From positions 124,001 through 188,000 of the forward strand of contig NZ_VOHQ01000005.1 of assembly GCF_009192765.1 (NCBI RefSeq): a DNA stretch of 64,000 nt. The letters run 5' to 3'. A program made the translations under genes and the position numbers. This DNA comes from Agriterribacter humi (GTDB lineage Bacteria; Bacteroidota; Bacteroidia; Chitinophagales; Chitinophagaceae). The notes beneath the pieces are model-generated. The model saw only the letters and a list, made by a program, of their open reading frames with translations, did not search any database and was not told the origin of the DNA. Each line of letters starts with the position of its first letter. Position 1 is the stretch's first letter. Below, in pieces: positions 22,517 through 34,722 of this stretch.

Positions 22517-23082
22517 TTGTTACCATTTTTATATTGTGCAAAAAATAGCTTTCGCAATCTTATCAGGCATTTGTACTTCTGATTCTTTGCATTATCCGAG
22601 TTGGTATAGCCGAAAGCCTCCGCTATTTCCTGCATATTTTGTTTATGTATATAATAGGCCTCAAGCAGGCTTTTACAGGGTTCTCCGACATTTGCCATAG
22701 CATGTTCCATCATCCCAAGCTCATTGTTTCTCTTTTCATGCGCCCCAAGATCTTCCTCCACATACACCGTTTCTTCAAGTCCATTGCTTTGCAGCTCATA
22801 CCGGCTATTTTTTTGTAATCGTTTGAGCCACAATCGTTTACTAACAGAGTACAAATAGGTTTTAACCTGGCAATTCAACTCAAATACCCCCGATTTAGCC
22901 TTTTCATATAATACAATCAAAGCCTCCTGAAAAATATCTTTTGCATCATCCTCCGTTCCGTTATTGTTCAGAATCAGGCTTTGAATAATTCCATAGTTAT
23001 CCTTGTATATTGCTTCAATGGCGTTTTTATCGTTGACCGACAGGCCTTTGATTAATTCTTGTTCCTTAAGGTTACTATTCAC
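22513..23082 (-). CDS. RNA polymerase sigma factor, ECF-like
   Basis: Region 2 (AIEAIYKDNYGIIQSLILNN, then AKDIFQEALIVLYEKA) and region 4 (LEAYYIHKQNMQEIAEAFGY, then KNQKYKCLIRLRKLF) identify a sigma-70-family factor of ECF size. The open frame reaches a TTG at 23124, but that would start inside the proposed promoter. The GTG at 23082 (VNSNLKEQELIKGL) is preferred and gives 189 residues; no ATG is available. It is followed by the membrane protease through an ATGA overlap. It is divergent from the repeat lipoprotein at 23223, and the two sides share a promoter motif, which suggests self-regulation. Confidence 0.87.
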   Translation of the reverse strand: MNSNLKEQELIKGLSVNDKNAIEAIYKDNYGIIQSLILNNNGTEDDAKDIFQEALIVLYEKAKSGVFELNCQVKTYLYSVSKRLWLKRLQKNSRYELQSNGLEETVYVEEDLGAHEKRNNELGMMEHAMANVGEPCKSLLEAYYIHKQNMQEIAEAFGYTNSDNAKNQKYKCLIRLRKLFFAQYKNGNK

Positions 23083-23092
23083 TAAGCTTATA

Positions 23093-23122
23093 TTAATACT
23101 ATAATGCCATAATTGGTAACCC
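23093..23122 (-). promoter_or_regulatory. Candidate ECF promoter, sigma/protease side
   Basis: Read on the minus strand: GGGTTACC (23122-23115), 15 bases, GTATTAA (23099-23093). The same two blocks with a 14-base spacer lie on the plus strand in front of the divergent lipoprotein. The proposed start site would be only a few bases before the GTG at 23082, so the sigma message would have a very short leader. Confidence 0.6.
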
Positions 23123-23154
23123 AAAATTGGGCAAAAAATAATTTAAAAAAAATC

Positions 23155-23183
23155 GGGTTACCTTTTTTTCACTTTTGTATTAA
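23155..23183 (+). promoter_or_regulatory. Candidate ECF promoter, lipoprotein side
   Basis: GGGTTACC (23155-23162), 14 bases, GTATTAA (23177-23183), ending 39 bases before the lipoprotein start. The blocks are identical to those facing the sigma gene. The bipartite plan with about 15 bases between boxes is usual for ECF promoters. Confidence 0.6.
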
Positions 23184-23222
23184 AGGTAGATTTCATTATC
23201 AAACTATTCAAAAACATTAAGA

Positions 23223-23432
23223 ATGAAAAAGTTACTCGTTATTTTGGCTATAGGCGCTTTTGCTGCCTGCAACAATGCATCTGATTCTGCTGAAGCTACT
23301 GTTGACAGCGTAAAAACTGCCGCCGAAGCTACTGTTGACAGCGCACAAAATGCTGCAGATGCTACTGTAGACAGTGCAAAGAACGCTGCAGATGCTGCTG
23401 TTGATTCTGTAAAAGACGCAACCAAGCAATAA
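23223..23432 (+). CDS. Small lipoprotein with four 11-residue repeats
   Basis: A 69-residue protein with a signal peptide, a lipobox (GAFAAC) and lipidated Cys16. Residues 23-66 are four perfect-length 11-mers of the type A-E/D-A-T-V-D-S-x-x-x-A, with no proline; they would form one amphipathic helix, as in LEA-like or apolipoprotein-like proteins. The gene is divergent from the ECF sigma/protease pair and shares its promoter motif, so it is a likely regulon member. A strong terminator follows at 23473. A stress or envelope-spacer role is possible, by analogy only. Confidence 0.8.
   Translation: MKKLLVILAIGAFAACNNASDSAEATVDSVKTAAEATVDSAQNAADATVDSAKNAADAAVDSVKDATKQ
23289..23420 (+). repeat. 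Four tandem 33-bp coding repeats
   Basis: Units at 23289, 23322, 23355 and 23388, each 33 bases, encode the 11-residue repeats of the lipoprotein. The first two units share long identical stretches (gaagctactgttgacagcg), so copy number could change by slippage without breaking the frame. Confidence 0.85.
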
Positions 23433-23472
23433 GCGATCCCAAGTTTTTTTTATATGGCAAGCAATCGTTGAG

Positions 23473-23503
23473 GCCACTCCTGTTCAGGAGTGGCATTTTT
23501 TTT
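23473..23503 (+). terminator. Rho-independent terminator after the repeat lipoprotein
   Basis: GCCACTCCTG (23473-23482) pairs perfectly with CAGGAGTGGC (23485-23494) and is followed by a run of eight T. It separates the lipoprotein from the aromatic operon promoter. Confidence 0.92.
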
Positions 23504-23522
23504 AAAAATTGCGCTCTAAATA

Positions 23523-23552
23523 TTTGTTTGTTTATTTTTAGTCTTACATTTG
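23523..23552 (+). promoter_or_regulatory. Bacteroidota-type promoter of the aromatic amino acid operon
   Basis: TTTG at 23523-23526, 18 bases, TACATTTG at 23545-23552. This matches the TTTG / TAnnTTTG consensus fully. The start site would lie within a few bases of the leader peptide ATG at 23560, so the message begins almost directly with the leader. Confidence 0.8.
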
Positions 23553-23559
23553 CTTTGCA

Positions 23560-23646
23560 ATGAATACAACAAAAGCATACGGTTTCTTTTATTTTTATTT
23601 CTACTTTACAGGCAGACCGGGATTGCTTTTGTTGAAAAATAAGTAA
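23560..23646 (+). CDS. Phe/Tyr-rich leader peptide of the pheA operon
   Basis: A 28-codon frame, ATG 23560 to TAA 23644-23646. Codons 9-16 (23584-23607) read FFYFYFYF, with another Tyr at codon 7, so eight of ten consecutive codons are Phe or Tyr. The distal part is T-G-R-P-G-L-L-L-L-K-N-K. It lies between a consensus promoter and the attenuator hairpin of the prephenate dehydratase gene, the place and composition expected for a control peptide whose translation stalls when Phe- or Tyr-tRNA is short. No other function is likely. It is below usual gene-finder length limits. Confidence 0.9.
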   Translation: MNTTKAYGFFYFYFYFTGRPGLLLLKNK

Positions 23647-23697
23647 AAACAAAAAATTCAGCATACACAGTCCCGGCTAAAAACCGGGATTTTTTTA
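23567..23697 (+). promoter_or_regulatory. Transcription attenuator of the aromatic amino acid operon
   Basis: Four pairing segments are visible. Segment 1, caacaaaagca (23567-23577), pairs over 11 bases with segment 2, tgcttttgttg (23624-23634). CCGGGA (23617-23622), directly before segment 2, can pair with TCCCGG (23671-23676). TCCCGG can instead pair with CCGGGA (23684-23689), followed by seven T: a terminator. Stalling at the Phe/Tyr codons between segments 1 and 2 would open the first hairpin, free CCGGGA, and block the terminator. The pairings are seen directly; the control is inferred from classical phe/trp attenuation. Confidence 0.85.
23671..23697 (+). terminator. Attenuator terminator hairpin
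   Basis: TCCCGG (23671-23676), loop ctaaaaa, CCGGGA (23684-23689), then TTTTTTT (23690-23696). It stands 30 bases before the pheA start and 25 bases after the leader stop codon. Confidence 0.85.
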
Positions 23698-23726
23698 TGA
23701 CTTTTTGACAAGATATACCCAAATAT

Positions 23727-24653
23727 ATGAGTAATTATAATAATACCACACCACCTGAAACAGCAACTTCCGAAGATAATTTTGCAATGGTTGACCAGGA
23801 GGATATACCGGGAGAAAACAAACCTGTGCTGGCATCTATACAAGGCTACGAAGGCAGCTTTCACCAGGTGGCGGCACAGCATTTCTTTGGCAAAAAAACA
23901 TCTGTAATTTGTTGTGCTACTTTTGGAGAAGTGGTTAAACAAGTCACTAACAAAAAAGAAAGCGATGGTGGTGTAATGGCAATTGAAAATTCTATAGCCG
24001 GAAGCATTTTACCCAACTATAACCTGCTACAAAAAAGCAAGCTTAAAGTTATTGGTGAAATATACCTGCAAATCAAACAAAATTTATTGGTTAATCCGGG
24101 CATACAATTAGAAGACATTAAAGAAGTTCATTCACATCCAATGGCTATTCAGCAATGCCTGGAATACCTTGAAAAGTACAACTGGAAGCTTGTTGAAACC
24201 GAGGATACAGCATTAAGCGCAAAACATATTCACCAGCATAAAAGCAAACACATTGCCGCTATCGCAAGCACACTGGCAGCCAGGTTATATAATCTGGATG
24301 TGCTTGCGCCCGACATTCATACACTAACGAATAATTATACCCGCTTTTTAATATTACAGCATGAAGACCTGGCACAGGTAATTGAAAATGCCAATAAAGC
24401 TTCTGTGAATTTCCATACCGATCACTCTATGGGCAGCCTGGCCAAAGTGCTTACAAAAATTGCTGAAGGAGGGATCAACCTCAGTAAATTGCAAAGCTCT
24501 CCTATCCCGGGATCCGACTTCAGATATTCTTTTCATGCCGATATGGAGTTTGATTCGCTGGGCCGGTTTTACCAGGTAATAAAAGAAATGAAAGCCCTCA
24601 CTGAAGATTTAAAAATTTATGGAGTATATCGCAAAGGAAAACATTATTCATAA
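23727..24653 (+). CDS. pheA: Prephenate dehydratase
   Basis: A 308-residue monofunctional PDT that turns prephenate into phenylpyruvate. The catalytic domain (about 34-215) shows IQGYEGSFHQVAA, GVMAIENSIAGSILPNY and NNYTRFLIL, which holds the conserved Thr-Arg-Phe. The C-terminal ACT domain (about 230-308), with GSLAKVLTKIAEGGINLSKL, binds phenylalanine for feedback control. The first 33 residues are polar and not part of the domain; Met21 is an alternative start. It is the first structural gene behind the Phe/Tyr attenuator, and the aminotransferase follows after 38 bases. Confidence 0.95.
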   Translation: MSNYNNTTPPETATSEDNFAMVDQEDIPGENKPVLASIQGYEGSFHQVAAQHFFGKKTSVICCATFGEVVKQVTNKKESDGGVMAIENSIAGSILPNYNLLQKSKLKVIGEIYLQIKQNLLVNPGIQLEDIKEVHSHPMAIQQCLEYLEKYNWKLVETEDTALSAKHIHQHKSKHIAAIASTLAARLYNLDVLAPDIHTLTNNYTRFLILQHEDLAQVIENANKASVNFHTDHSMGSLAKVLTKIAEGGINLSKLQSSPIPGSDFRYSFHADMEFDSLGRFYQVIKEMKALTEDLKIYGVYRKGKHYS

Positions 24654-24691
24654 CACCACCCACTACTTACCACTTACTACTTACCACTATT

Positions 24692-25870
24692 ATGACAGCA
24701 AAACGATTAGAAGGTATTGGTGAATACTATTTCTCCCAAAAGCTGAGGGAAATAGATGAATTGAACCGGCAGGGCAGGCAAGTCATTAACCTCGGCATTG
24801 GCAGCCCGGATATGCCTCCGCATCCGGATGTAATAAAAACCCTGCAGGATGAAAGTGCCAAACCCAACGTGCACGCTTATCAGAATTATAAAGGGTCGCC
24901 CGTTTTGCGCAAGGCTATTGCAGCCTGGTATAAAACATGGTACGCTGTAACGCTTAACCCCGATACAGAAATATTACCATTGATAGGTAGCAAGGAAGGC
25001 ATTATGCATATATGCATGACCTATATAAATGAGGGGGATGATGTATATGTGCCCAATCCCGGATACCCAACCTACCGAAGCGCTGCAAAATTGGCCGGGG
25101 GAAATATTGTAGAATATACACTGGAAGAAAACAACAACTGGTTACCCGATTTTGAAAAGCTTGAAAAATTGATCAGCAGCTCAAAGACGAATCAGTCAAC
25201 CCGTTTGCTCTTTGTAAATTATCCCCACATGCCTACGGGGCAGTTGCCAACCCAATCATTTTTTGAAGCCCTGGTTGCGTTTGCAAAAGCAAATCAGTTG
25301 TTAATTGTGCACGATAATCCGTATAGTTTTATTTTGAACAACCGGCCCGCAAGCCTCTTAAGCGTGGAAGGCGCCAAAGAAGTAGCTGTTGAACTAAATT
25401 CATTGAGCAAATCGCAGAATATGGCCGGCTGGCGTGTGGGAATGTTATGCGGTGCCAGGGAAAGAATTGATGAAGTATTGCGCTTTAAAAGCAACATGGA
25501 CAGCGGTATGTTCTTACCGGTACAACTGGCGGCTGCAACTGCCTTAATGCTTGGCGGGGAATGGTATGACAGTATCAACACAATGTATAAAAACCGGAGA
25601 GAAAAAGTATTTGCCTTACTACAGTTGCTTAATTGCTCATTTTCGCCAGGGCAGGCAGGCATGTTTGTATGGGCTAAAATTCCCGGAAGCTACAAAGATG
25701 GCTATGCTTTAAGTGATGAGGTATTGTATACTTCAAATGTATTTATAACGCCCGGTGGCATTTTTGGAAGTGCAGGCAAGGATTATGTACGGGTAAGCTT
25801 ATGTTGCACAGAGCAAAAAATAGATGAGAGCATAAATAGAATCAAAACATCATTGAAAGGAAAAAAATAA
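24692..25870 (+). CDS. Class I/II PLP aminotransferase (probable aromatic aminotransferase)
   Basis: A 392-residue fold-type I enzyme. Lys240 in NSLSKSQNMAGWRVGM binds PLP; Asp208-Asn209-Pro210 and Tyr211 (VHDNPYSF) and the N-terminal LGIGSPDMPP are typical. It resembles LL-diaminopimelate/aspartate aminotransferases. Being between pheA and tyrA, it most likely transaminates phenylpyruvate and hydroxyphenylpyruvate, or prephenate. The 38-base gap before it contains no G except in the start codon and carries the repeat ctacttacca twice. The gap to tyrA is three bases. Confidence 0.88.
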   Translation: MTAKRLEGIGEYYFSQKLREIDELNRQGRQVINLGIGSPDMPPHPDVIKTLQDESAKPNVHAYQNYKGSPVLRKAIAAWYKTWYAVTLNPDTEILPLIGSKEGIMHICMTYINEGDDVYVPNPGYPTYRSAAKLAGGNIVEYTLEENNNWLPDFEKLEKLISSSKTNQSTRLLFVNYPHMPTGQLPTQSFFEALVAFAKANQLLIVHDNPYSFILNNRPASLLSVEGAKEVAVELNSLSKSQNMAGWRVGMLCGARERIDEVLRFKSNMDSGMFLPVQLAAATALMLGGEWYDSINTMYKNRREKVFALLQLLNCSFSPGQAGMFVWAKIPGSYKDGYALSDEVLYTSNVFITPGGIFGSAGKDYVRVSLCCTEQKIDESINRIKTSLKGKK

Positions 25871-25873
25871 ACA

Positions 25874-26722
25874 ATGTTCGATACCATTACCATTGTAGGC
25901 GTAGGCCTGATCAGCGGTTCATTTAGTATTATTTTAAAAGAGAAAGGATTAGTAAAACATGTAATTGGCGTAAGCCGTACAGAGAACAGCATAAAAAAAG
26001 CGCTGGAATTAGGCATTATTGACGAGGCGCTGCCGTTGGAAGAAGCCGTTAGAAAAAGTGATCTTATTTATGTTGCCATACCTGTAGATGCCACTATTAC
26101 GGTGATGGAGAAGATAATGGATCTGATAACCGAAAAACAAATTGTGGCAGACGCAGGTTCTACCAAGCAGGCACTCTGCGAAGCTTTGGCCAATCATCCT
26201 ATGCGAAGCCGTTTTGTTGCCACGCACCCTATGTGGGGAACAGAATACAGCGGGCCGGAAGCAGCCGTTCGTGATGCATTTGCAGGACGTACCTGTGTAA
26301 TTTGTGAGAAAGAAAAAAGCGATAAAGATGCCGTAGCTACCATTGAAGAAGTATATAAACTCCTGGGAATGCATGTTACTTATATGGATGCAGACGCTCA
26401 CGATATGCATGCTGCTTACGTAAGTCATATTTCTCATATTACCTCTTTTGCGCTGGCAAATACAGTGCTGGAAAAGGAAAAAGAAGAAAATGCCATTTTT
26501 GAACTCGCAGGTGGCGGTTTTGAAAGCACGGTCCGGCTTGCGAAAAGCAATCCCGCTATGTGGCTTCCCATTTTCAGACAAAATCGGGAACATGTATTAG
26601 ACGTACTCAATGAGCATATTACGCAATTAAGAAAATTTAAAAGTTGTATCGAAAAAGAAAACTATGTCTATTTACAGGAGCTGATGGAGAATGCCAATAA
26701 AATAAATCGTATAATCAAGTAA
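25874..26722 (+). CDS. tyrA: Prephenate dehydrogenase
   Basis: A 282-residue NAD(P)-dependent enzyme that turns prephenate into 4-hydroxyphenylpyruvate. The dinucleotide motif is IVGVGLISGSF (7-17). DAGSTKQALCEAL, THPMWGTEYSGPEAA and HAAYVSHISHITSFALA are the classic TyrA catalytic and substrate segments with the active-site His. There is no fused chorismate mutase and no ACT domain; the mutase is fused to DAHP synthase two genes downstream. It is translated almost directly after the aminotransferase. Confidence 0.95.
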   Translation: MFDTITIVGVGLISGSFSIILKEKGLVKHVIGVSRTENSIKKALELGIIDEALPLEEAVRKSDLIYVAIPVDATITVMEKIMDLITEKQIVADAGSTKQALCEALANHPMRSRFVATHPMWGTEYSGPEAAVRDAFAGRTCVICEKEKSDKDAVATIEEVYKLLGMHVTYMDADAHDMHAAYVSHISHITSFALANTVLEKEKEENAIFELAGGGFESTVRLAKSNPAMWLPIFRQNREHVLDVLNEHITQLRKFKSCIEKENYVYLQELMENANKINRIIK

Positions 26723-26783
26723 CATTAAGAGAAATACAGCATACAAAATGGCAAATAATAAGCAGAATCAGCGAAATCGTGTT

Positions 26784-26791
26784 TATCTTTG
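26784..26791 (+). promoter_or_regulatory. Bacteroidota-type -7 element before the DEAD-box helicase
   Basis: TATCTTTG (consensus TAnnTTTG) ends 18 bases before the helicase start, in the only sizeable gap (87 bases) of the first half of the operon. No clear -33 TTTG is seen. It may let the helicase and downstream aro genes be transcribed when the attenuator is closed. Confidence 0.5.
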
Positions 26792-26809
26792 CGAAAATTT
26801 TTTTAATAT

Positions 26810-28486
26810 ATGATGACATTTGAAGAGTTGGGTTTAGACGGGAGATTGGTACAGGCTACCGATGCTTTGGGATTTAAACAGCCAACCCCTATACAGGAAA
26901 AAGCGATTCCTGTTTTGCTGAGCGGCACCACAGATCTGGTGGGGTTGGCACAAACGGGTACAGGAAAAACAGCGGCTTTTGGCTTACCATTGCTGCAATT
27001 AATAGATGCAAAAGATAAGTATCCGCAGGCATTGGTGGTTTGTCCTACCAGGGAATTGTGTATGCAGATTGTGAATGAAATAGAGCTCTTTAAAAAATTT
27101 ATAACCGGCATGCATGTGGTGGCGGTATATGGAGGAACATCTATTGGTGCACAGATCAGGGACCTGAAAAGAGGAATACAGATTGTTGTAGCTACACCGG
27201 GAAGATTGATTGATTTAATTGAACGTAAAGCAATAAACCTGGAGCAGATTAAATATGTAGTGCTGGATGAAGCAGATGAAATGCTGAACATGGGTTTCCA
27301 GGATGACATTGAATTTATTTTACAGAACACCCCAAATCGGGAGAGCACATGGTTATTTAGCGCCACCATGCCCCCCGAAATACGGCGTGTAAGTAAAAAA
27401 TACATGAAGCAGCCCGTAGAAATAACGGTAGGCAAAATGAACACTGCCAATAAAAATGTTGATCACCAATACTATGTTGCCAGCGCACAGCACCGCTACG
27501 ATGCGTTGAAACGGCTAATTGATTTTAACCCCGGTATTTATGGCATCATCTTTACCCGAACCAAGGCAGATGCCCAGGCAATAGCCGAAAAGCTTACACG
27601 GGAAGGTTACGATATTGACGCTTTGCATGGCGATCTTACACAGCAGCAAAGAGACAAAGTGATGGGTGAGTTCAGAGAGAAAACACTTCAGCTTTTAATA
27701 GCAACAGACGTAGCGGCCAGGGGCATTGATGTGCAGGGTATAACCCATGTTATCAATTATGAATTACCCGATGATGTGGAAGTATACACCCACCGCAGCG
27801 GCCGTACAGGGCGTGCGGGAAACACCGGCATTTGTATGTCTGTTATACACAGCCGGGAAATTGGCAAGATCAGGCAAATTGAAAGAATGGTGCAGGTACC
27901 TTTTCATAAGCTGGAAATACCTGCAGGCAAGGATGTATGCCGTAAACAGTTTTACCATTTTATGGATAACCTGCTTCAATTAGATATAGAGGATGACAGC
28001 TATGAACCATACATACCCATGCTGGAAGAAAAATTTGCGGACGTGAGCAAGGAAGAAGTATTGAAGAGATTAGCTGCACATGAATTTAAAAGGTTCTTAA
28101 AATATTATGAAAATGCAGAAGACCTGAACGTAAGAGAAAGAACCCGCGAATACCGCGAAAGAGATCCGAAAGCATTTACAGAAAGAAGGGACATCACCCG
28201 CAGGCGCGATACACGGGGACGTGAATTTGGCGGCAATGGCGGAGACTACACCAAATTGTTTGTTAATCTCGGGACTAAAGATGGGTTTTATAAAGCAAGT
28301 TTCCTGCAATTTATTTTAGACATGAGTGATTTAAAAAAAGATTCGTTGGGCAGAATTGATATGAAGGAAATGAATAGCTGGATAGAGGTGGATAAAAAAT
28401 CTGCTCCCCAGATGATACGTTCTATTGACGGAAAAAAATATAAAGGAAGAAGCATAAGAATGAACGATGCCGATCAGAGAAGATAG
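26810..28486 (+). CDS. DEAD-box ATP-dependent RNA helicase with DbpA-type RNA-binding domain
   Basis: A 558-residue helicase with all core motifs: Q motif (PTPIQEKAIP), Walker A AQTGTGKT (47-54), PTREL, TPGR, DEAD in VLDEADEMLNMGF, SAT, ATDVAARGID and HRSGRTGRAGNTG. After the helicase core (to about 375) comes a helical linker, an Arg-rich segment and a C-terminal DbpA-like RNA-binding domain (KLFVNLGTKDGF). It is of the CshA/DeaD type for ribosome assembly or mRNA decay. It is collinear with the aromatic genes but functionally foreign to them and has its own promoter element. Two ATGs in a row make 26810 or 26813 equally good. Confidence 0.95.
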   Translation: MMTFEELGLDGRLVQATDALGFKQPTPIQEKAIPVLLSGTTDLVGLAQTGTGKTAAFGLPLLQLIDAKDKYPQALVVCPTRELCMQIVNEIELFKKFITGMHVVAVYGGTSIGAQIRDLKRGIQIVVATPGRLIDLIERKAINLEQIKYVVLDEADEMLNMGFQDDIEFILQNTPNRESTWLFSATMPPEIRRVSKKYMKQPVEITVGKMNTANKNVDHQYYVASAQHRYDALKRLIDFNPGIYGIIFTRTKADAQAIAEKLTREGYDIDALHGDLTQQQRDKVMGEFREKTLQLLIATDVAARGIDVQGITHVINYELPDDVEVYTHRSGRTGRAGNTGICMSVIHSREIGKIRQIERMVQVPFHKLEIPAGKDVCRKQFYHFMDNLLQLDIEDDSYEPYIPMLEEKFADVSKEEVLKRLAAHEFKRFLKYYENAEDLNVRERTREYRERDPKAFTERRDITRRRDTRGREFGGNGGDYTKLFVNLGTKDGFYKASFLQFILDMSDLKKDSLGRIDMKEMNSWIEVDKKSAPQMIRSIDGKKYKGRSIRMNDADQRR

Positions 28487-28535
28487 TGTGAGAAATAATT
28501 AGTAATCCAATTTGTAACAAATAAAACATTATTAT

Positions 28536-29624
28536 ATGCAAGCGGTTGAAACCAATACAAAAGCTGCAGTGCTGGAAAAACTGAATAAAAAACCACTGAT
28601 CATTTCCGGCCCATGCAGCGCAGAAACCGAGGAGCAGGTGCTGGAAACGGCACAGCGGCTGGCCAATACAGGAAAAGTAGATATGCTCCGGGCAGGTATA
28701 TGGAAACCCCGCACCCGCCCCGGAAGTTTTGAAGGAATTGGCACAAAGGGTTTACCCTGGTTACAGCAGGCAAAAAAAATAACAGGCTTGCCCACAACAG
28801 TAGAAGTAGCTACAGGTAAGCAGGCGCAGGATGCATTGCATTTTGAAATAGATATGCTTTGGATAGGGGCACGCACAACAGTTAATCCTTTCAGCGTTCA
28901 GGAAGTAGCGGATGCGTTGCGTGGTGCAGATGTTCCTGTATTCATCAAAAATCCCATCAATCCTGATCTTGAATTATGGACAGGTGCAGTAGAACGCATA
29001 GCCAAAGCCGGTATAAAAACCATAGGATTGATTCATCGAGGCTTTAGCGCATATGGCAACACAGAATACCGCAATGCCCCCATGTGGCACCTGGCCATCG
29101 AAATGAAAAGGCGTAATCCTGAATTGAAAATAATAAATGATCCTTCCCACATTTGCGGCCGGAGGGATATCCTGCTTGAAGTAGCGCAAAAAGCTATTGA
29201 CCTTGATTTTGACGGATTGATGATAGAAAGCCATATTGATCCGGATAATGCATGGAGCGATGCCAAACAGCAGGTTACGCCCGAAAAGCTGGCCGAAATG
29301 CTGGACGCTATTACCTGGAGAAAGGAAGATGTAAATTCGGAGGAGGTTCATGCGGCATTGGAAAAACTCCGCCAGCAGATCAATCACCTCGATGATGAAA
29401 TGATGCAGATATTAAGCCAGCGCATGAGCCTGGCTGAAAAAATAGGGCAATACAAAAAAGACAATAATATTACGATCTTGCAAACGTCCAGGTGGAATGA
29501 AATTCTGGAAAGAGCATTTAAAAGAGGTGATAAGATTGGTTTAAGCAATGAATTTATTACCAAGTATTTTGATGCTATACATATGGAATCTATCAACCAT
29601 CAAAATAAGATCATGAACTCCTGA
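28536..29624 (+). CDS. Bifunctional DAHP synthase / chorismate mutase (type II)
   Basis: A 362-residue fusion. Residues 1-260 are a type I-beta DAHP synthase: SGPCSAETEEQVL, RAGIWKPRTRPGSFEG, HRGFSAYGNTEYRN, NDPSHICGRR and GLMIESHIDPDNAWSDA hold the PEP- and metal-binding residues. Residues of about 270-350 are an AroQ chorismate mutase (LRQQINHLDDEMMQILSQR, then EKIGQYKK). It catalyses the first step of the shikimate route and the branch step towards prephenate, and feedback by prephenate is common for such fusions. It lies 49 bases after the helicase and 19 bases before the transposase gene. Confidence 0.95.
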   Translation: MQAVETNTKAAVLEKLNKKPLIISGPCSAETEEQVLETAQRLANTGKVDMLRAGIWKPRTRPGSFEGIGTKGLPWLQQAKKITGLPTTVEVATGKQAQDALHFEIDMLWIGARTTVNPFSVQEVADALRGADVPVFIKNPINPDLELWTGAVERIAKAGIKTIGLIHRGFSAYGNTEYRNAPMWHLAIEMKRRNPELKIINDPSHICGRRDILLEVAQKAIDLDFDGLMIESHIDPDNAWSDAKQQVTPEKLAEMLDAITWRKEDVNSEEVHAALEKLRQQINHLDDEMMQILSQRMSLAEKIGQYKKDNNITILQTSRWNEILERAFKRGDKIGLSNEFITKYFDAIHMESINHQNKIMNS

Positions 29625-29643
29625 ACCATTCCGCATCAATAAT

Positions 29644-30078
29644 ATGCAGGGCAGCATTAATACTTTTATTTATATCCATGCCATATGGTGTACTGCCGGC
29701 AGGCAGCCTTCACTTACCAGCGTGGTAAGAAAAGTATTATTCCCTTATATAAAAAAAAATGCAGAAGAAAAGGGTATACAGGTGATGGCAGTAAACGGGG
29801 CCGGGGAACATGTTCATTGCCTCTTTAAGCTGATGCCTGTTCAGTCTGTTTCCGAAATCATAAAGCAACTCAAAACTGAATCCGAGAGCTGGCTGAATGA
29901 CAATAAATTCCTCCTCCATACTTTTGAATGGGAAAAGATTTATTCCGCATGGTCTGTTAGCCCTTCCACTATTGATAAGGCTGTGGAATATATTAATAAG
30001 CAGGAAGAATATCACCTGGCAAAAACCCTTGATGAGGAACTGGCTGCGTTTGATAAGATGGTCATTCAAATAACGTGA
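29644..30078 (+). mobile_element. IS200-like / REP-associated Y1 tyrosine transposase gene
   Basis: A complete 144-residue Y1 transposase. The HUH metal motif is His56-Val-His58 (GEHVHCLFKL), and the likely nucleophile is Tyr116 followed by Gln120 (VEYINKQEEYH). Length and motif order match IS200 TnpA/RAYT proteins that nick single-stranded DNA. It sits with a 19-base gap between the DAHP synthase stop and its ATG, and 44 bases before the aroB start. There is no room for, and no sign of, the usual subterminal hairpins of an IS. The frame is intact and collinear with the operon. It may be a RAYT, possibly acting on the hairpin repeats elsewhere in the genome, or a fixed insertion. Confidence 0.85.
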
Positions 30079-30122
30079 CCCGGATAATCCGTCCATCTCT
30101 AATTTCAACTCTTAAATCAGAA

Positions 30123-31151
30123 ATGATTATAATGGATCCCGTAAAATACACATTCAGCAACGCTTCTACACATTGCTATTTTGACGCTGCTTTTCCGCAA
30201 TTAAAAAAAATTGTGGATCCCAAATCGGCGATTATTGTTACCGATGAAAATGTTTACAGCGGGCATATCAAAAAATTCAGGAACTGGAATACCATTGTAT
30301 TAAAACCAGGTGAAGCATTTAAAGTGCAGGCCACTGTTGATACCGTAATTGAACAAATGATAGCGCTGCAGGCCGACCGGAAAACTACACTTATTGGCGT
30401 TGGCGGAGGGGTGATTACAGACATTACTGGGTATGCAGCTTCGGTGTATATGCGTGGCATCCCGTTTGGCTTTGTACCAACATCGGTATTAAGCATGGTT
30501 GACGCAAGTATTGGCGGAAAAAACGGCATTGATGTAGGTGTATATAAAAACATGGTAGGGGTTATCCGTCAGCCCGCTTTTTTATTACATGATCCTGCTT
30601 TTTTGCAAACCCTGCCGCAACATGAATGGGAGAATGGCTTTGCCGAGATCATCAAACATGCCTGTATAAAAGATGCTGCTATGTTCAGGGAACTGGAAGC
30701 CAATACGCTAAAAACATACCAGAACAAAAGACAGGCAATGCGCACCTTAATTCAGCGCAATGCCGTGATCAAAATTAAAGTGGTGCAAAAAGATGAATTT
30801 GAAAAAGCCGGCAGGAAGCTATTGAACTTCGGCCATACACTGGGGCACGCTTTGGAAAACCAATACGACTTATCGCATGGACAGGCGATTTCCATTGGCA
30901 TGACCTATGCCTGTCATATTTCAGCACAATTAAGAGGATTTAAGGATACGGAAAAAGTAGTGCAATTATTAGAACAGTACGGGCTCCCCACCTACGCTTC
31001 TTTTAATAAAAAAAAGGCTATAGAAGTACTGAAAATGGACAAAAAGAGGGAGCGAAAAGAAATGAACTATGTATTATTGGATAAGATAGGTAAGGCTGTG
31101 ATTGAGTTAATACCTTTACAGCAATTGGAAAAAATAATATCAGCATTATAA
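30123..31151 (+). CDS. aroB: 3-dehydroquinate synthase
   Basis: An enzyme of 342 residues that cyclises DAHP to 3-dehydroquinate with NAD and a divalent metal. Motifs are clear: GVGGGVITDITGYAASVYMRGIPFG (first 20: GVGGGVITDITGYAASVYMR), PTSVLSMVDASIGGKNGIDV, a metal-site Glu in NGFAEIIKHACIKD, and NFGHTLGHALE with the metal-binding His. The open frame begins with a GTG at 30075 inside the transposase gene, but ATG 30123 (or 30132, MDPVKYTF) fits the family better. The stop is three bases before the aroA start, so aroB and aroA are tightly coupled. Confidence 0.94.
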   Translation: MIIMDPVKYTFSNASTHCYFDAAFPQLKKIVDPKSAIIVTDENVYSGHIKKFRNWNTIVLKPGEAFKVQATVDTVIEQMIALQADRKTTLIGVGGGVITDITGYAASVYMRGIPFGFVPTSVLSMVDASIGGKNGIDVGVYKNMVGVIRQPAFLLHDPAFLQTLPQHEWENGFAEIIKHACIKDAAMFRELEANTLKTYQNKRQAMRTLIQRNAVIKIKVVQKDEFEKAGRKLLNFGHTLGHALENQYDLSHGQAISIGMTYACHISAQLRGFKDTEKVVQLLEQYGLPTYASFNKKKAIEVLKMDKKRERKEMNYVLLDKIGKAVIELIPLQQLEKIISAL

Positions 31152-31154
31152 GTT

Positions 31155-32474
31155 ATGATTGCAACTATTCAACCTTCGCGGTTATCAGATACCATCCAGG
31201 CGCCTGCATCCAAAAGTTCCATGCAACGGGCCTGTGCTGCGGCTTTGATATCGAAGGGCAAAAGTTTCATTTATAATCCCGGCCATTCTAACGATGATAA
31301 AGCTGCACTACAGGTAATTGCAGCAATGGGAGCCAAAGTTAACCAGCTCAGTGATGGTTCAATAGAAACAGACAGCACTGGCATTGATCTATCTTCACCC
31401 GGCAAAGCACAGTCTTCAACAGTAGTAAATTGCGGTGAAAGCGGGCTGGGCATACGCATGTTTGCACCCATCATTGCATTAAGCAAACGACCGGTTACCA
31501 TACAGGGAGAAGGTAGCCTGCTTTCGCGCCCCATGGATTTTTTTGATGAAATATTACCACGTTTAAACGTTACAGTTAGTTCAAATAAAGGCAGGTTGCC
31601 CATTACGCTTTCCGGTCCGCTGCAACCCGGGGATATTGAAATTGATGGTTCGTTAAGTTCCCAGTTTTTAACAGGTTTACTCATGGCATATGCCGCTGCG
31701 GATGCAAAAGGTGTAACCATTACCGTGAACAATTTAAAAAGTAAGCCTTATATAGATCTCACACTAAAAGTGATGCAGGCTTTTGGATTGAATGCACCAC
31801 GTAATAAAAATTACGAAGAATTCTATTTTGAAGCACCCATTACCGGGCATACAGCATCACAAACCCGGTATACTGTAGAAGGAGACTGGAGTGGCGGAGC
31901 ATTTTTACTGGTAGCAGGAGCTATTGCAGGAAATATAGAGGTATACGGGCTTGATCCTGATTCTGCACAGGCCGATAAAAAAATTCTGGCAGCATTGCGG
32001 GATGCCGGCGCAGGAATGGAAGTCAGCAATAAAAGCATTAAATTATTTACGGGTAAATTAAAAGCATTTACGTTTGATGCAACAGACTGTCCTGATCTTT
32101 TTCCTCCATTGGTGGCATTGGCAGCATATTGCAGCGGGTTAACCACAATAAAAGGGGTAAGCAGGCTGGCGCATAAAGAAAGTAACCGGGGATTAACCCT
32201 GCAGGAAGAATTTGGTAAAATGGGGTTGATTATAGATTTGGAGAAGGATACTATGCGGATACAGGGTGGAAAAGGATTAAAAGGAGCAACAGTGCATTCC
32301 CGCCATGATCATCGCATTGCCATGGCCTGTGCTGTGGCTGCACTGCAGGCCGCGGGAGAAACAATGATCGAAGAAGCAGAAGCAATAAACAAATCGTACC
32401 CTGATTTTTATGATGATCTGACAACACTGGGAGCCGGAATAAAAATAAAGCAGCAAACAATACATATTCAATAA
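31155..32474 (+). CDS. aroA: 3-phosphoshikimate 1-carboxyvinyltransferase (EPSP synthase)
   Basis: A 439-residue enzyme that joins PEP to shikimate 3-phosphate. Substrate segments are visible: PASKSSMQRACAAALI, NCGESGLGIRMF, GSLSSQFLTGLLMA, EGDWSGGAFLLVAGA and HRIAMACAVAAL. The usual active-site pattern L-F-R-N-A-G-T is replaced by the C-G-E-S-G form found in Bacteroidota, and the start APASKS has S where others have GSKS. It is three bases after aroB and 29 bases before aroC. Confidence 0.94.
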   Translation: MIATIQPSRLSDTIQAPASKSSMQRACAAALISKGKSFIYNPGHSNDDKAALQVIAAMGAKVNQLSDGSIETDSTGIDLSSPGKAQSSTVVNCGESGLGIRMFAPIIALSKRPVTIQGEGSLLSRPMDFFDEILPRLNVTVSSNKGRLPITLSGPLQPGDIEIDGSLSSQFLTGLLMAYAAADAKGVTITVNNLKSKPYIDLTLKVMQAFGLNAPRNKNYEEFYFEAPITGHTASQTRYTVEGDWSGGAFLLVAGAIAGNIEVYGLDPDSAQADKKILAALRDAGAGMEVSNKSIKLFTGKLKAFTFDATDCPDLFPPLVALAAYCSGLTTIKGVSRLAHKESNRGLTLQEEFGKMGLIIDLEKDTMRIQGGKGLKGATVHSRHDHRIAMACAVAALQAAGETMIEEAEAINKSYPDFYDDLTTLGAGIKIKQQTIHIQ

Positions 32475-32503
32475 CCAATCATTAGCTTTAAGCAAAATCG
32501 CAT

Positions 32504-33550
32504 ATGAATTCTTTTGGGAGATTTTTTCGTGTACATATTTTTGGCGAATCACATGGCGAAAGTGTGGGTATTACCATTGACAATTGCCCGGCTGGTCTGC
32601 CGCTGAAAGCTGATGATTTTTTGAATGATATTGAAAGAAGGAAAGGAGGCACGCAAAAAGGAACAACTCCGAGGCAGGAATCGGACCTGCCTATTTTTAA
32701 AAGTGGTATTTTTAACGACACAACAACGGGTGCGCCTGTTACCATACTGTTTGAAAATAACAATACCCGTTCAGGAGATTATCAAAAACAAAGAGCGGTA
32801 CCACGACCAGGGCATGCTGATTTTGTAGCGCATCAAAAATATGGAGGATTTGAAGATTACAGGGGTGGCGGTCATTTCAGCGGGCGTCTTACAGTAGCAC
32901 TGGTAGCTGCGGGTGTAATAGCAAAAAAATTATTACAGTTGGCTCCAACCAGCAACAATGAAGCTTTAACTGAAGTTAAATCTGCAGGCATCTCTGTGAT
33001 TGCATCTATATTAGAAATTGGCGGTGAAAAAGACCTGGAAAAAGGTCTGCAAAAAGCCATTGACGCTAAAGATAGTATTGGAGGTATTGTAGAGTGCAGG
33101 GTGAATGGCCTGCCGGCAGGCCTGGGTGAACCTTTTTTTGACTCTGCAGAGTCATTACTGAGTCACGCTGTTTTTGCCATACCCGCTATTCGTGGAATTG
33201 AATTTGGAACAGGCTTTGCCGCTGCCAGCATGTTTGGAAGCGATCATAATGATGCTATTGCCGACACGAGTGGCACAACAATTACCAATCACGCAGGAGG
33301 AATAGCAGGAGGCATAACCAATGGAAATGAATTGGTTTTTCGCATTGCTGTTAAACCCACTTCTTCCACACCCAAAGTACAACAAACCTTAAACTGGGAA
33401 ACCGGTGCTGTGGAAGCGTTTTCAGTAAAAGGTCGTCATGATCTCTGCATAGCTTTGCGGGTGCCTGTTGTGCTTGAAGCCATTACAGCTATTGTTTTAG
33501 CCGACCTGATGCTAATTGAACAAAAGATACCGCGGATAATACATACTTAA
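32504..33550 (+). CDS. aroC: Chorismate synthase
   Basis: A 348-residue FMN-dependent enzyme that makes chorismate from EPSP. The signatures GESHGESVGITIDNCPAG, RPGHADFVAHQKYG with FEDYRGGGHFSGR, and SDHNDAIADTSG and GGITNGN are as in the family, including the paired His residues near the N-terminus and middle. It is the last biosynthetic gene of the aromatic cluster. A DUF952 gene follows after 18 bases and may be in the same transcript. Confidence 0.95.
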   Translation: MNSFGRFFRVHIFGESHGESVGITIDNCPAGLPLKADDFLNDIERRKGGTQKGTTPRQESDLPIFKSGIFNDTTTGAPVTILFENNNTRSGDYQKQRAVPRPGHADFVAHQKYGGFEDYRGGGHFSGRLTVALVAAGVIAKKLLQLAPTSNNEALTEVKSAGISVIASILEIGGEKDLEKGLQKAIDAKDSIGGIVECRVNGLPAGLGEPFFDSAESLLSHAVFAIPAIRGIEFGTGFAAASMFGSDHNDAIADTSGTTITNHAGGIAGGITNGNELVFRIAVKPTSSTPKVQQTLNWETGAVEAFSVKGRHDLCIALRVPVVLEAITAIVLADLMLIEQKIPRIIHT

Positions 33551-33568
33551 TTACTTAAACCAACTGCC

Positions 33569-33877
33569 ATGCCTCTCATCTACCATGTTACAACCGCTTC
33601 TGAATGGAACGATGCAAAACAAAAAGGATATTATGAATCCCGGGCGCTCAAAGAAGAAGGATTTATTCATTGCAGTGAAGAAAGGCAAATACCTGATGTG
33701 TTGAAAAGGTACTATAGCGACAAAACTGATCTTGTTAAATTAACCATTCAAACAAACAAATTAACCAGCCAGCTAATATACGATTGGTCCAATGCTATTG
33801 AAGATACATTCCCGCATGTTTACGGACCTATCAATCTTGATGCAGTTGTAAGCGTTGAAAAAATACAGGCTGATTGA
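33569..33877 (+). CDS. DUF952 domain protein
   Basis: A 102-residue protein covering the whole DUF952 domain: IYHVTTASEWNDAKQKGYYE at the N-terminus, EGFIHCSEERQIPDVLKRYY, and FPHVYGPINLDAVV at the end. The fold is thought to be related to ADP-ribosyl-binding or glutathione-transferase-like proteins, but no activity is established. It follows aroC by 18 bases. The stop codon lies in a 14-bp palindrome, TTGATATATATCAA (33874-33887). Confidence 0.85.
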   Translation: MPLIYHVTTASEWNDAKQKGYYESRALKEEGFIHCSEERQIPDVLKRYYSDKTDLVKLTIQTNKLTSQLIYDWSNAIEDTFPHVYGPINLDAVVSVEKIQAD

Positions 33878-34047
33878 TATATATCAACACATCCATGGCT
33901 TTCTTTTTTGATTATTGTTGAGCTATGATAATAAATCATTCCTTCAGTTAATTTACATAGTGTTTCATGCAGTTTTCATCATTTATGTAAGTATTTTTAC
34001 TTACCCTTACGGGGATAATACTATAGCTCACAGTAAAAAAAACACGT

Positions 34048-34722
34048 ATGAAAACTTTATTAATCATTACCAGTATTATCCTTTTATCCTTCCAGATAGA
34101 CCGCCTGCTGGTAATCAATTTATCAGATGCCAGCGTTGAAATGCCATCATTAACCAATGCCTTTTCCGTTTATGAAAGTTTGCCGGACATAAAAGCCGCA
34201 AACAGCCATATAAAGGCGCCTGTTAAGGTAAATGAAATCAGCTCCGGCGCATTAACTTTAAAATCCGCTCCGGAGCGTATAGAAAAAAACAGGCCTGCAA
34301 AAATAAAACCCGGCATGAATCGCTCTAACCGGATGAATAGTAAAAACAGCCTTCTTCATCATGAAATAAAGCAATCCGGCAAATATCTTGAACTAAACAC
34401 ACTGCTGTTTGATTTTGATCAGTATGAGAATGTAGAAACTGAAGAATTTAATATTATTCTTCAGCTTGCAGACAAGCTGATCTTTGACGAATCATTAAAG
34501 ATAAGTATAGCAGGTTTTACAGATAACACAGGTAATGCGGAATACAATAAAAAACTTTCCCTTTTACGTGCCGAAAATGTAAAGCACTATATGCTTGACC
34601 TGGGCGTAAATGAAGGCCAGATCATCGTTTCAGCAAACGGCATTTCATATCCTGCGGCAAACAATAACACAATGGAAGGAAGAGCAACAAACAGGAGAGT
34701 GGAAATGTTGCTTATACCATAA
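34048..34722 (+). CDS. OmpA-family C-terminal domain protein
   Basis: A 224-residue protein with an N-terminal hydrophobic signal or anchor (residues 2-25), a polar linker rich in Lys and Asn, and an OmpA-like peptidoglycan-binding domain from about residue 110: LLFDFDQYENVETEEFN, ISIAGFTDNTGNAEYNKKLS, RAENVKHYML and GRATNRRVEMLL, holding the conserved Asp and Arg that bind diaminopimelate. There is no beta-barrel. It probably tethers the envelope to murein. It is 170 bases downstream of the DUF952 gene and monocistronic. Confidence 0.88.
   Translation: MKTLLIITSIILLSFQIDRLLVINLSDASVEMPSLTNAFSVYESLPDIKAANSHIKAPVKVNEISSGALTLKSAPERIEKNRPAKIKPGMNRSNRMNSKNSLLHHEIKQSGKYLELNTLLFDFDQYENVETEEFNIILQLADKLIFDESLKISIAGFTDNTGNAEYNKKLSLLRAENVKHYMLDLGVNEGQIIVSANGISYPAANNNTMEGRATNRRVEMLLIP

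Follow-up and report, generated by a model that had tools for sequence, protein, structure and literature searches.

The pheA gene of Agriterribacter humi is preceded by a short open reading frame (ORF) with a run of Phe and Tyr codons, an antiterminator and an intrinsic terminator, which together we regard as a classical ribosome-mediated transcription attenuator sensing Phe or Tyr (probability roughly 0.93). Judged from the sequence, the Phe/Tyr leader very probably enables the ribosome to turn on the operon under Phe/Tyr shortage, and the device is widely shared in the phylum Bacteroidota. The basis of this assignment, by sequence and comparison, is the set of parts, their conservation, an RNA segment (segment 3) common to antiterminator and terminator, and spacing that matches a ribosome footprint; we infer the transcription start, leader translation, operon extent and response to Phe/Tyr. 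In E. coli, the pheL leader ORF with its Phe codons, competing hairpins and an intrinsic terminator precede pheA. The element described here has the same arrangement as this enterobacterial pheA attenuator (RF01859), i.e., leader ORF, competing hairpins and intrinsic terminator before pheA, but it differs in mixing Phe and Tyr codons, in having tyrA and aro genes behind it, and in being probably near-leaderless.

Attenuator parts and the genes behind them

The window (the whole stretch of DNA analysed, 64,000 nt) had been described in an earlier note, made from the letters alone, as containing a promoter, a leader, a hairpin, an antiterminator strand and a terminator before pheA. All of these were present when the region was read directly, and the positions matched almost to the base. 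The parts are as follows (window coordinates):

23523..23552, + strand: predicted Bacteroidota sigma-A promoter (consensus match)
23523-23526, + strand: -33 element TTTG, 18 nt spacer to the -7 box
23545-23552, + strand: -7 box TACATTTG, predicted +1 at 23557
23560..23646, + strand: leader ORF of 28 sense codons plus stop, MNTTKAYGFFYFYFYFTGRPGLLLLKNK, ATG at 23560, stop at 23644-23646 (similar leaders in relatives)
23567..23577, + strand: segment 1, CAACAAAAGCA, 5' arm of the 1:2 hairpin (pairs with 23624-23634)
23584..23607, + strand: regulatory codons FFYFYFYF, 5 Phe and 3 Tyr (direct reading; Phe/Tyr enrichment in relatives)
23617..23636, + strand: segment 2, CCGGGA at 23617-23622 and TGTTGAA at 23630-23636 (pairing scores, relatives)
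23624-23634, + strand: 3' arm of the 1:2 hairpin, TGCTTTTGTTG (11 bp with segment 1)
23657..23676, + strand: segment 3, TTCAGCA at 23657-23663 and TCCCGG at 23671-23676 (pairing scores, relatives)
23669..23697, + strand: intrinsic terminator (3:4), stem-loop 23669-23691 and T7 23690-23696 (scan, 3:4 covariation)

A sigma-70 scan gave no match at the promoter site, and the Bacteroidota consensus was applied instead. The pattern TTG-N17-20-TAnnTTTG was matched three times on the + strand of 23001-34500, and the promoter at 23523 is the only one of these before pheA; the predicted promoter thus lies upstream of the leader and not past 23700, in agreement with the earlier note. Two copies of CCGGGATT are present, one at 23617-23624 and the other at 23684-23691 inside the 3' arm of the terminator, so that the antiterminator strand is an exact copy of the terminator 3' arm, as had been claimed, and the copy extends over 8 nt, not merely 6. 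A second antiterminator half-helix, absent from the earlier description, is formed by TGTTGAA (23630-23636) and TTCAGCA (23657-23663) with one G-U pair. Antiterminator and terminator are mutually exclusive in the window, segment 3 being common to both, and the folding of the attenuator region beats 200 of 200 dinucleotide shuffles (z -3.4). Further upstream, a strong terminator-like hairpin at 23473-23494 closes a small frame starting at 23224, and a similar hairpin also precedes the leader in several genus-mates.

The gene run behind the attenuator was assigned by Pfam:

23727..24653, + strand: pheA, prephenate dehydratase (PF00800)
24692..25870, + strand: aminotransferase class I/II (PF00155)
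25874..26722, + strand: tyrA, prephenate dehydrogenase (PF02153, PF20463)
26810..28486, + strand: DEAD-box RNA helicase with DbpA domain, within the gene run (PF00270, PF03880)
28536..29624, + strand: DAHP synthase-chorismate mutase fusion (PF00793, PF01817)
29644..30078, + strand: Y1 transposase-like (IS200-like) gene, within the gene run (PF01797)
30075-31151, + strand: aroB (PF01761/PF24621)
31155-32474, + strand: aroA (PF00275)
32504-33550, + strand: aroC (PF01264)

By these assignments the products of the run serve the synthesis of Phe, Tyr and their precursors. FFYFYFYF precedes the pheA/tyrA run, in keeping with the suggestion that the mixed codons fit an operon making both amino acids, and the genes from pheA to aroC would form one transcript. 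Four more + strand terminator-like sites were detected in the gene run (26281, 30559, 30897 and 32672), none with as many pairs as the attenuator; on both strands of the region there were 15 such sites against a shuffled expectation of 12.2, i.e., close to chance. The Y1 transposase-like gene overlaps the longest aroB frame by 4 nt. In four other loci (L015, L016, L020 and L024), what appears by eye to be the same helicase ends just upstream of the pheA leader.

Conservation of the leader and of RNA pairing

The pheA gene was found in 35 of 58 relatives and in 79 of 295 genomes of the class, and 30 loci were fetched from each set; a further 80 loci with record titles were taken from at least 588 confirmed. 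Removal of five duplicates (L031, L111, L113, L114 and L118) from the 140 loci left 135, and 133 were used in the leader enrichment test, two (L096 and L098) being too short. Near-identical loci (e.g., L057/L058) were retained, and the counts given here are raw and ignore relatedness. A small ORF with at least 6 Phe/Tyr in 8 codons, located within 400 nt upstream of pheA, was present in 113 of the 133 loci, and the same criterion picked out 7 of 1330 shuffled sequences and, on the reverse strand, 1 of 133. The small Phe/Tyr frame, whose conservation across pheA loci the earlier note had proposed as a check, is conserved. Altogether 129 leader units were found, two of which were too short to score; the remaining 127 come from 115 loci and encode 121 different peptides. 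Of the 127 leaders, 32 contain Trp codons, often adjoining the Phe/Tyr run, and these perhaps add Trp sensing.

Leader and terminator were found together in 116 of 135 loci, a joint count with no shuffle control. The 19 loci without a unit are L030, L070, L086, L095, L096, L098, L116, L119, L121, L125-L129, L131, L133, L134, L137 and L140; L086 and L095 have a leader and lack a recognised terminator, and L096 and L098 are too short for a judgement. In some of these loci pheA may not be the head of its operon, and so the negatives are no proof of loss. All seven fetched loci of one family, f32 (L126, L128, L129, L133, L134, L137 and L140), are without a Phe/Tyr leader directly upstream of pheA; the leader may have been lost in this family, or pheA may not head the operon there.

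The regular company of ORF and terminator would also fit a leader ORF that encodes a small functional protein and has a terminator to itself, the likeness to an attenuator being incidental. We consider this very improbable, however, since the peptide past the Phe/Tyr run varies by lineage and the RNA pairing with segment 3 is kept. In 111 of 127 units the antiterminator (2:3) duplex outscored 95% of shuffles, and in 98 it outscored 99%, with a median of -18.7 kcal/mol vs -9.3 kcal/mol for the shuffled sequences. Among 74 terminator types, the own 2:3 partners gave a mean of -19.2 kcal/mol vs -12.6 kcal/mol for swapped partners, and the own partner beat 95% of swaps in 34 types and 90% in 50. 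Synonymous codon choice leans towards 2:3 pairing as well: in 65 of 115 units the real codons do better than 95% of synonymous alternatives (29 of 115 for 1:2 pairing). This also argues against a protein function, as does the presence of the unit before a DAHP synthase gene instead of pheA in two genomes.

Covariation was scored in an alignment of 65 rows from 77 sequences, 12 divergent sequences being left out. The 77 had been picked from the 127 units by CGGG near the start of segment 2, a choice that favours 2:3 pairing, and the core of the alignment is invariant and therefore uninformative on covariation. The scores were 0.131 vs 0.096 shuffled for 2:3, 0.238 vs 0.164 for 1:2, and 0.177 vs 0.110 for 3:4, each above 500 of 500 shuffles and above the slid versions of the helix; 96.7% of the cells of the 3:4 terminator are paired. 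The earlier note had proposed compensatory stem changes as a check, and the outcome was divided: the covariation scores of all three helices stand above their shuffles, but the counts of double changes are matched or passed by controls for 1:2 and 2:3. A slid 1:2 control had a covariation of 0.179 against 0.238 for the real helix, yet 58 double-changed cells against 55; 1:2 pairs changed on both sides showed no excess over shuffles (428 of 500 reach the count), and a slid 2:3 control had 27 double-changed cells vs 26 real. The 11-bp 1:2 hairpin is present in the window as described, but it is the least supported part in relatives, with a duplex that outscores 95% of shuffles in 67 of 127.

The leader begins very close to the predicted start of transcription. 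Of 126 units, 82 have an exact TAnnTTTG box no more than 45 nt from the leader start; box and start are 4-9 nt apart in 60 of these 82 and exactly 7 nt apart in 31. A TTG 18-20 nt before the box gave 34 matches in the 60 units. In controls, a gap of 4-9 nt was seen for 3 of 358 long ORFs of the fetched loci (150 aa or more, start codons unverified) and for none of 19 window ORFs of at least 120 aa. The promoter box of Flavobacterium psychrophilum spans -12 to -5 according to the available part of a published study (PMC9723704), which would place the window's +1 at 23557 with a 5'UTR of 3 nt. This agrees with the earlier claim that the leader starts within a few bases of the predicted transcription start, and a -7 box so near the leader start (4-9 nt) makes a nearly leaderless transcript probable. 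In six Chitinophaga-type loci the first leaders have gaps of 19-24 nt, and the near-leaderless feature is thus lineage-specific. For comparison, leaderless mRNAs made up 5.5% of those examined in F. psychrophilum (PMC9723704) and 5'UTRs shorter than 10 nt about 3.7% in B. thetaiotaomicron (PMC7366714), as far as the accessible portions of these papers go.

Stalling geometry and the proposed switch

In 98 of 127 units, vs 26% in shuffles, 6-10 nt separate the last Phe/Tyr codon from the start of the 2:3 helix, a gap of about one ribosome footprint. A metabolite- or tRNA-binding riboswitch (T-box-like) in place of a ribosome-sensed leader would share the structured 5' region with terminator and antiterminator. 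Against it stands the conserved core, a run of Phe/Tyr codons that can be translated and that keeps a fixed distance to the antiterminator. T-boxes have a specifier loop and the T-box sequence, and Rfam has a T-box model; no family of Rfam 15 reached its gathering score in the window or in six loci. We rate the riboswitch as less probable still than the small-protein gene. The element was also considered for membership in RF01859 (Phe_leader) and rejected at 27.6 bits vs a gathering score of 55. Ribosome-mediated attenuation, the mechanism proposed in the earlier note, is supported by three features of the relatives: conserved leaders, antiterminator-terminator pairing and footprint spacing.

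According to this mechanism, transcription would begin at about 23557, three bases before the AUG, and the ribosome would load on an almost leaderless RNA. When charged tRNA-Phe or tRNA-Tyr is scarce, the ribosome would stall in FFYFYFYF and cover the RNA to about 23616, leaving segment 2 free to form the 2:3 helix (CCGGGA/TCCCGG and TGTTGAA/TTCAGCA); the 3:4 terminator would then be blocked, and RNA polymerase would read into pheA, tyrA and the aro genes. When Phe and Tyr are both plentiful, the ribosome would proceed toward the stop codon at 23644 and mask segment 2, the terminator would form, and transcription would stop at about 23697. Without translation, termination would be the default, owing either to the 1:2 hairpin or to how strong the completed terminator is.

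Ribosome positions were modelled in full-length folding with an assumed 12-nt downstream footprint counted from the first base of the A-site codon, upstream RNA being ignored. For the window, the predicted terminator probability was 0.15 with the ribosome at codon 2, at most 0.05 at codons 3-16, at least 0.99 from codon 17, the codon right after the last Phe, and 1.00 in free RNA; with a footprint of 9 or 15 nt the boundary moves one codon later or earlier. Full-length equilibrium was rejected as a general proof: the window gives a clean result, yet 72 of the 127 units stay terminated throughout. Only 55 of 127 units ever fell below a terminator probability of 0.5, and 25 of 127 combined a low mean in the Phe/Tyr run with at least 0.5 when free; with only 55 units leaving the terminated state at equilibrium, most units must switch kinetically. 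Folding was then repeated on transcripts ending ahead of the terminator 3' arm, upstream RNA again being ignored. A ribosome placed in the Phe/Tyr run was predicted to leave segment 3 sequestered in 127 of 127 units, and one at the stop codon to release it (< 0.5) in 99 of 127. It was free (< 0.5) in only 9 of 127 untranslated transcripts, and the Phe/Tyr-stalled state exceeded free RNA by 0.2 in only 17 of 127; for the window, sequestration of segment 3 was 1.00 stalled, 0.51 at the stop and 0.98 free. Untranslated cut RNA thus rarely frees segment 3, and folding does not show how it would terminate, so the default of untranslated RNA, the least secure step, depends on kinetics or on how strong 3:4 finally is.

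It is possible, though on balance unlikely, that attenuation is real and that the untranslated default is not set by 1:2, which would serve as a pause site only, or that Rho or translation coupling contributes. The weaker 1:2 pairing in relatives and the preference of untranslated cut RNA for 2:3 point in this direction, but the 1:2 covariation score above all shuffles and the well-kept pairing of the intrinsic terminator point away from it.

Distribution and relation to known systems

A covariance model of the element, for which many of the same pheA loci served as input, had one match in the window's genome, and in 58 relatives its 27 best matches (E ≤ 5.7e-5) were all directly before pheA. 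Among 198 genomes of the phylum, 44 had a match at E ≤ 0.01, some by chance. Ten matched stretches were inspected: those of G454, G499, G474 and G399 are leaders before pheA, G474 and G399 being listed in the same phylum and a different class, and four are unrelated. The inspected matches with E above about 1e-4 were of two kinds, L217-L220 being unrelated terminators and L216 a real leader. The match G008:C46:205022-205150 was rejected as a pheA element, its position being that of a trpE leader. In the two genomes G182 and G501 (loci L211 and L213 noted), the Phe/Tyr leader precedes a DAHP synthase gene that heads the gene run, and the attenuator seems to follow the head of the operon.

Two leaders, each with its own terminator, precede pheA in 12 loci. 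By record title or leader, six of these are Chitinophaga (L027, L077, L078, L081, L083 and L109) and four Hymenobacter (L082, L084, L102 and L117), the others being L099 (Phaeodactylibacter) and L029. For tandem units of the Chitinophaga type the 2:3 pairing is well supported, with p ≤ 0.01 in 11 of 12 units and 0.09 in the remaining one; for those of the Hymenobacter type, which is GC-rich, support is mixed. L092, L100 and L130 have two leaders with the first terminator below the scorer, and L097 has one unit; L036, L059 and L101 were dismissed as tandem, the double listings sharing one terminator. We lean towards the view that Phe/Tyr attenuation is ancestral and Bacteroidota-wide, following the operon head (pheA or DAHP synthase), nearly leaderless in much of Chitinophagaceae with about 7 nt from -7 box to start, and doubled in series in Chitinophaga and Hymenobacter.

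Leaders followed by terminators were also found before hisG in 10 of 10 loci (9 from the genus, 1 from the order), before trpE in 9 of 12 loci, the other three being weak partial family matches, and before ilvD in 6 of 20 loci, all three counts having no shuffle control; the distance from ilvD leader to match was 314 nt in the window's genome and 1.2-1.4 kb in the other five, where another gene lies in between. Homoserine dehydrogenase had no leader within 1500 nt in any of 18 loci, the flanks stopping short of the start of the long fused genes. These matched leaders before trpE, hisG and ilvD make attenuation look like a genome-wide strategy. In the window's genome, the trpE leader (L178) carries WWW, the hisG leader (L145) HHHHH and the ilvD leader (L154) a long Ile/Val run, with terminators after each, and the trpE leader begins 10 nt after a TTTG. 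The genus' own leaders are thus alike in having runs of His, Ile/Val or Trp codons and then a terminator, but they differ from the pheA unit in the amino acids, the features scored there being leader and terminator.

The earlier note had called such an attenuator notable in this phylum, a claim of novelty that is weaker than stated, since signs of it already exist in F. psychrophilum. In the available part of that study, RNA-seq gave strong hints that leader peptides attenuate amino acid biosynthesis operons. Conserved 5' elements that are structured and have no Rfam match were reported before pheA and hisG, the pheA element in F. psychrophilum and other Flavobacteriaceae (PMC9723704). The window unit is like this pheA 5' element in belonging to the same phylum and the same gene, and differs from the account seen there in that leader sequence, pairing and footprint analysis are given for it. 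A 2010 survey recorded leader peptides as known from Proteobacteria and Actinobacteria and added Firmicutes, and the word "Bacteroidetes" is absent from its main text in the form available (PMC2965389); leader genes near structural genes have been counted in Bacteroidetes among others, for reinitiation, as far as the available text of that paper goes (PMC4833913). Among publications seen by title or opening of the abstract, with few subscription journals, no pheA attenuator of Chitinophagaceae and no tandem version was described. Work by Lopatovskaya et al. (2010) may cover the phylum. Canestrari et al. (2020) reportedly described leaderless polycysteine short-ORF attenuators of mycobacteria, which by title resemble the present element in combining an amino-acid-sensing leader ORF with a leaderless transcript, and which are unlike it in being Cys attenuators of Actinobacteria. 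What is new here is the anatomy, the breadth, the near-leaderless design and the doubled units in Chitinophaga and Hymenobacter.

Shine-Dalgarno sequences are reported absent in F. psychrophilum in the part of the study at hand (PMC9723704), and the present work gives a base-level account, broadly backed by comparison, of ribosome-mediated attenuation in such a phylum, with the leader start almost on the predicted +1. This makes the need for early ribosome loading and for transcription-translation coupling in Bacteroidota directly testable. The sequences offer a starting set for an RNA family not recognised here by Rfam 15, and the uncharacterised pheA 5' element of Flavobacteriaceae is likely explained by a leader attenuator. 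The tandem units constitute a natural experiment in serial attenuation, and doubled leader-terminator units, if true, would multiply the switch ratio.
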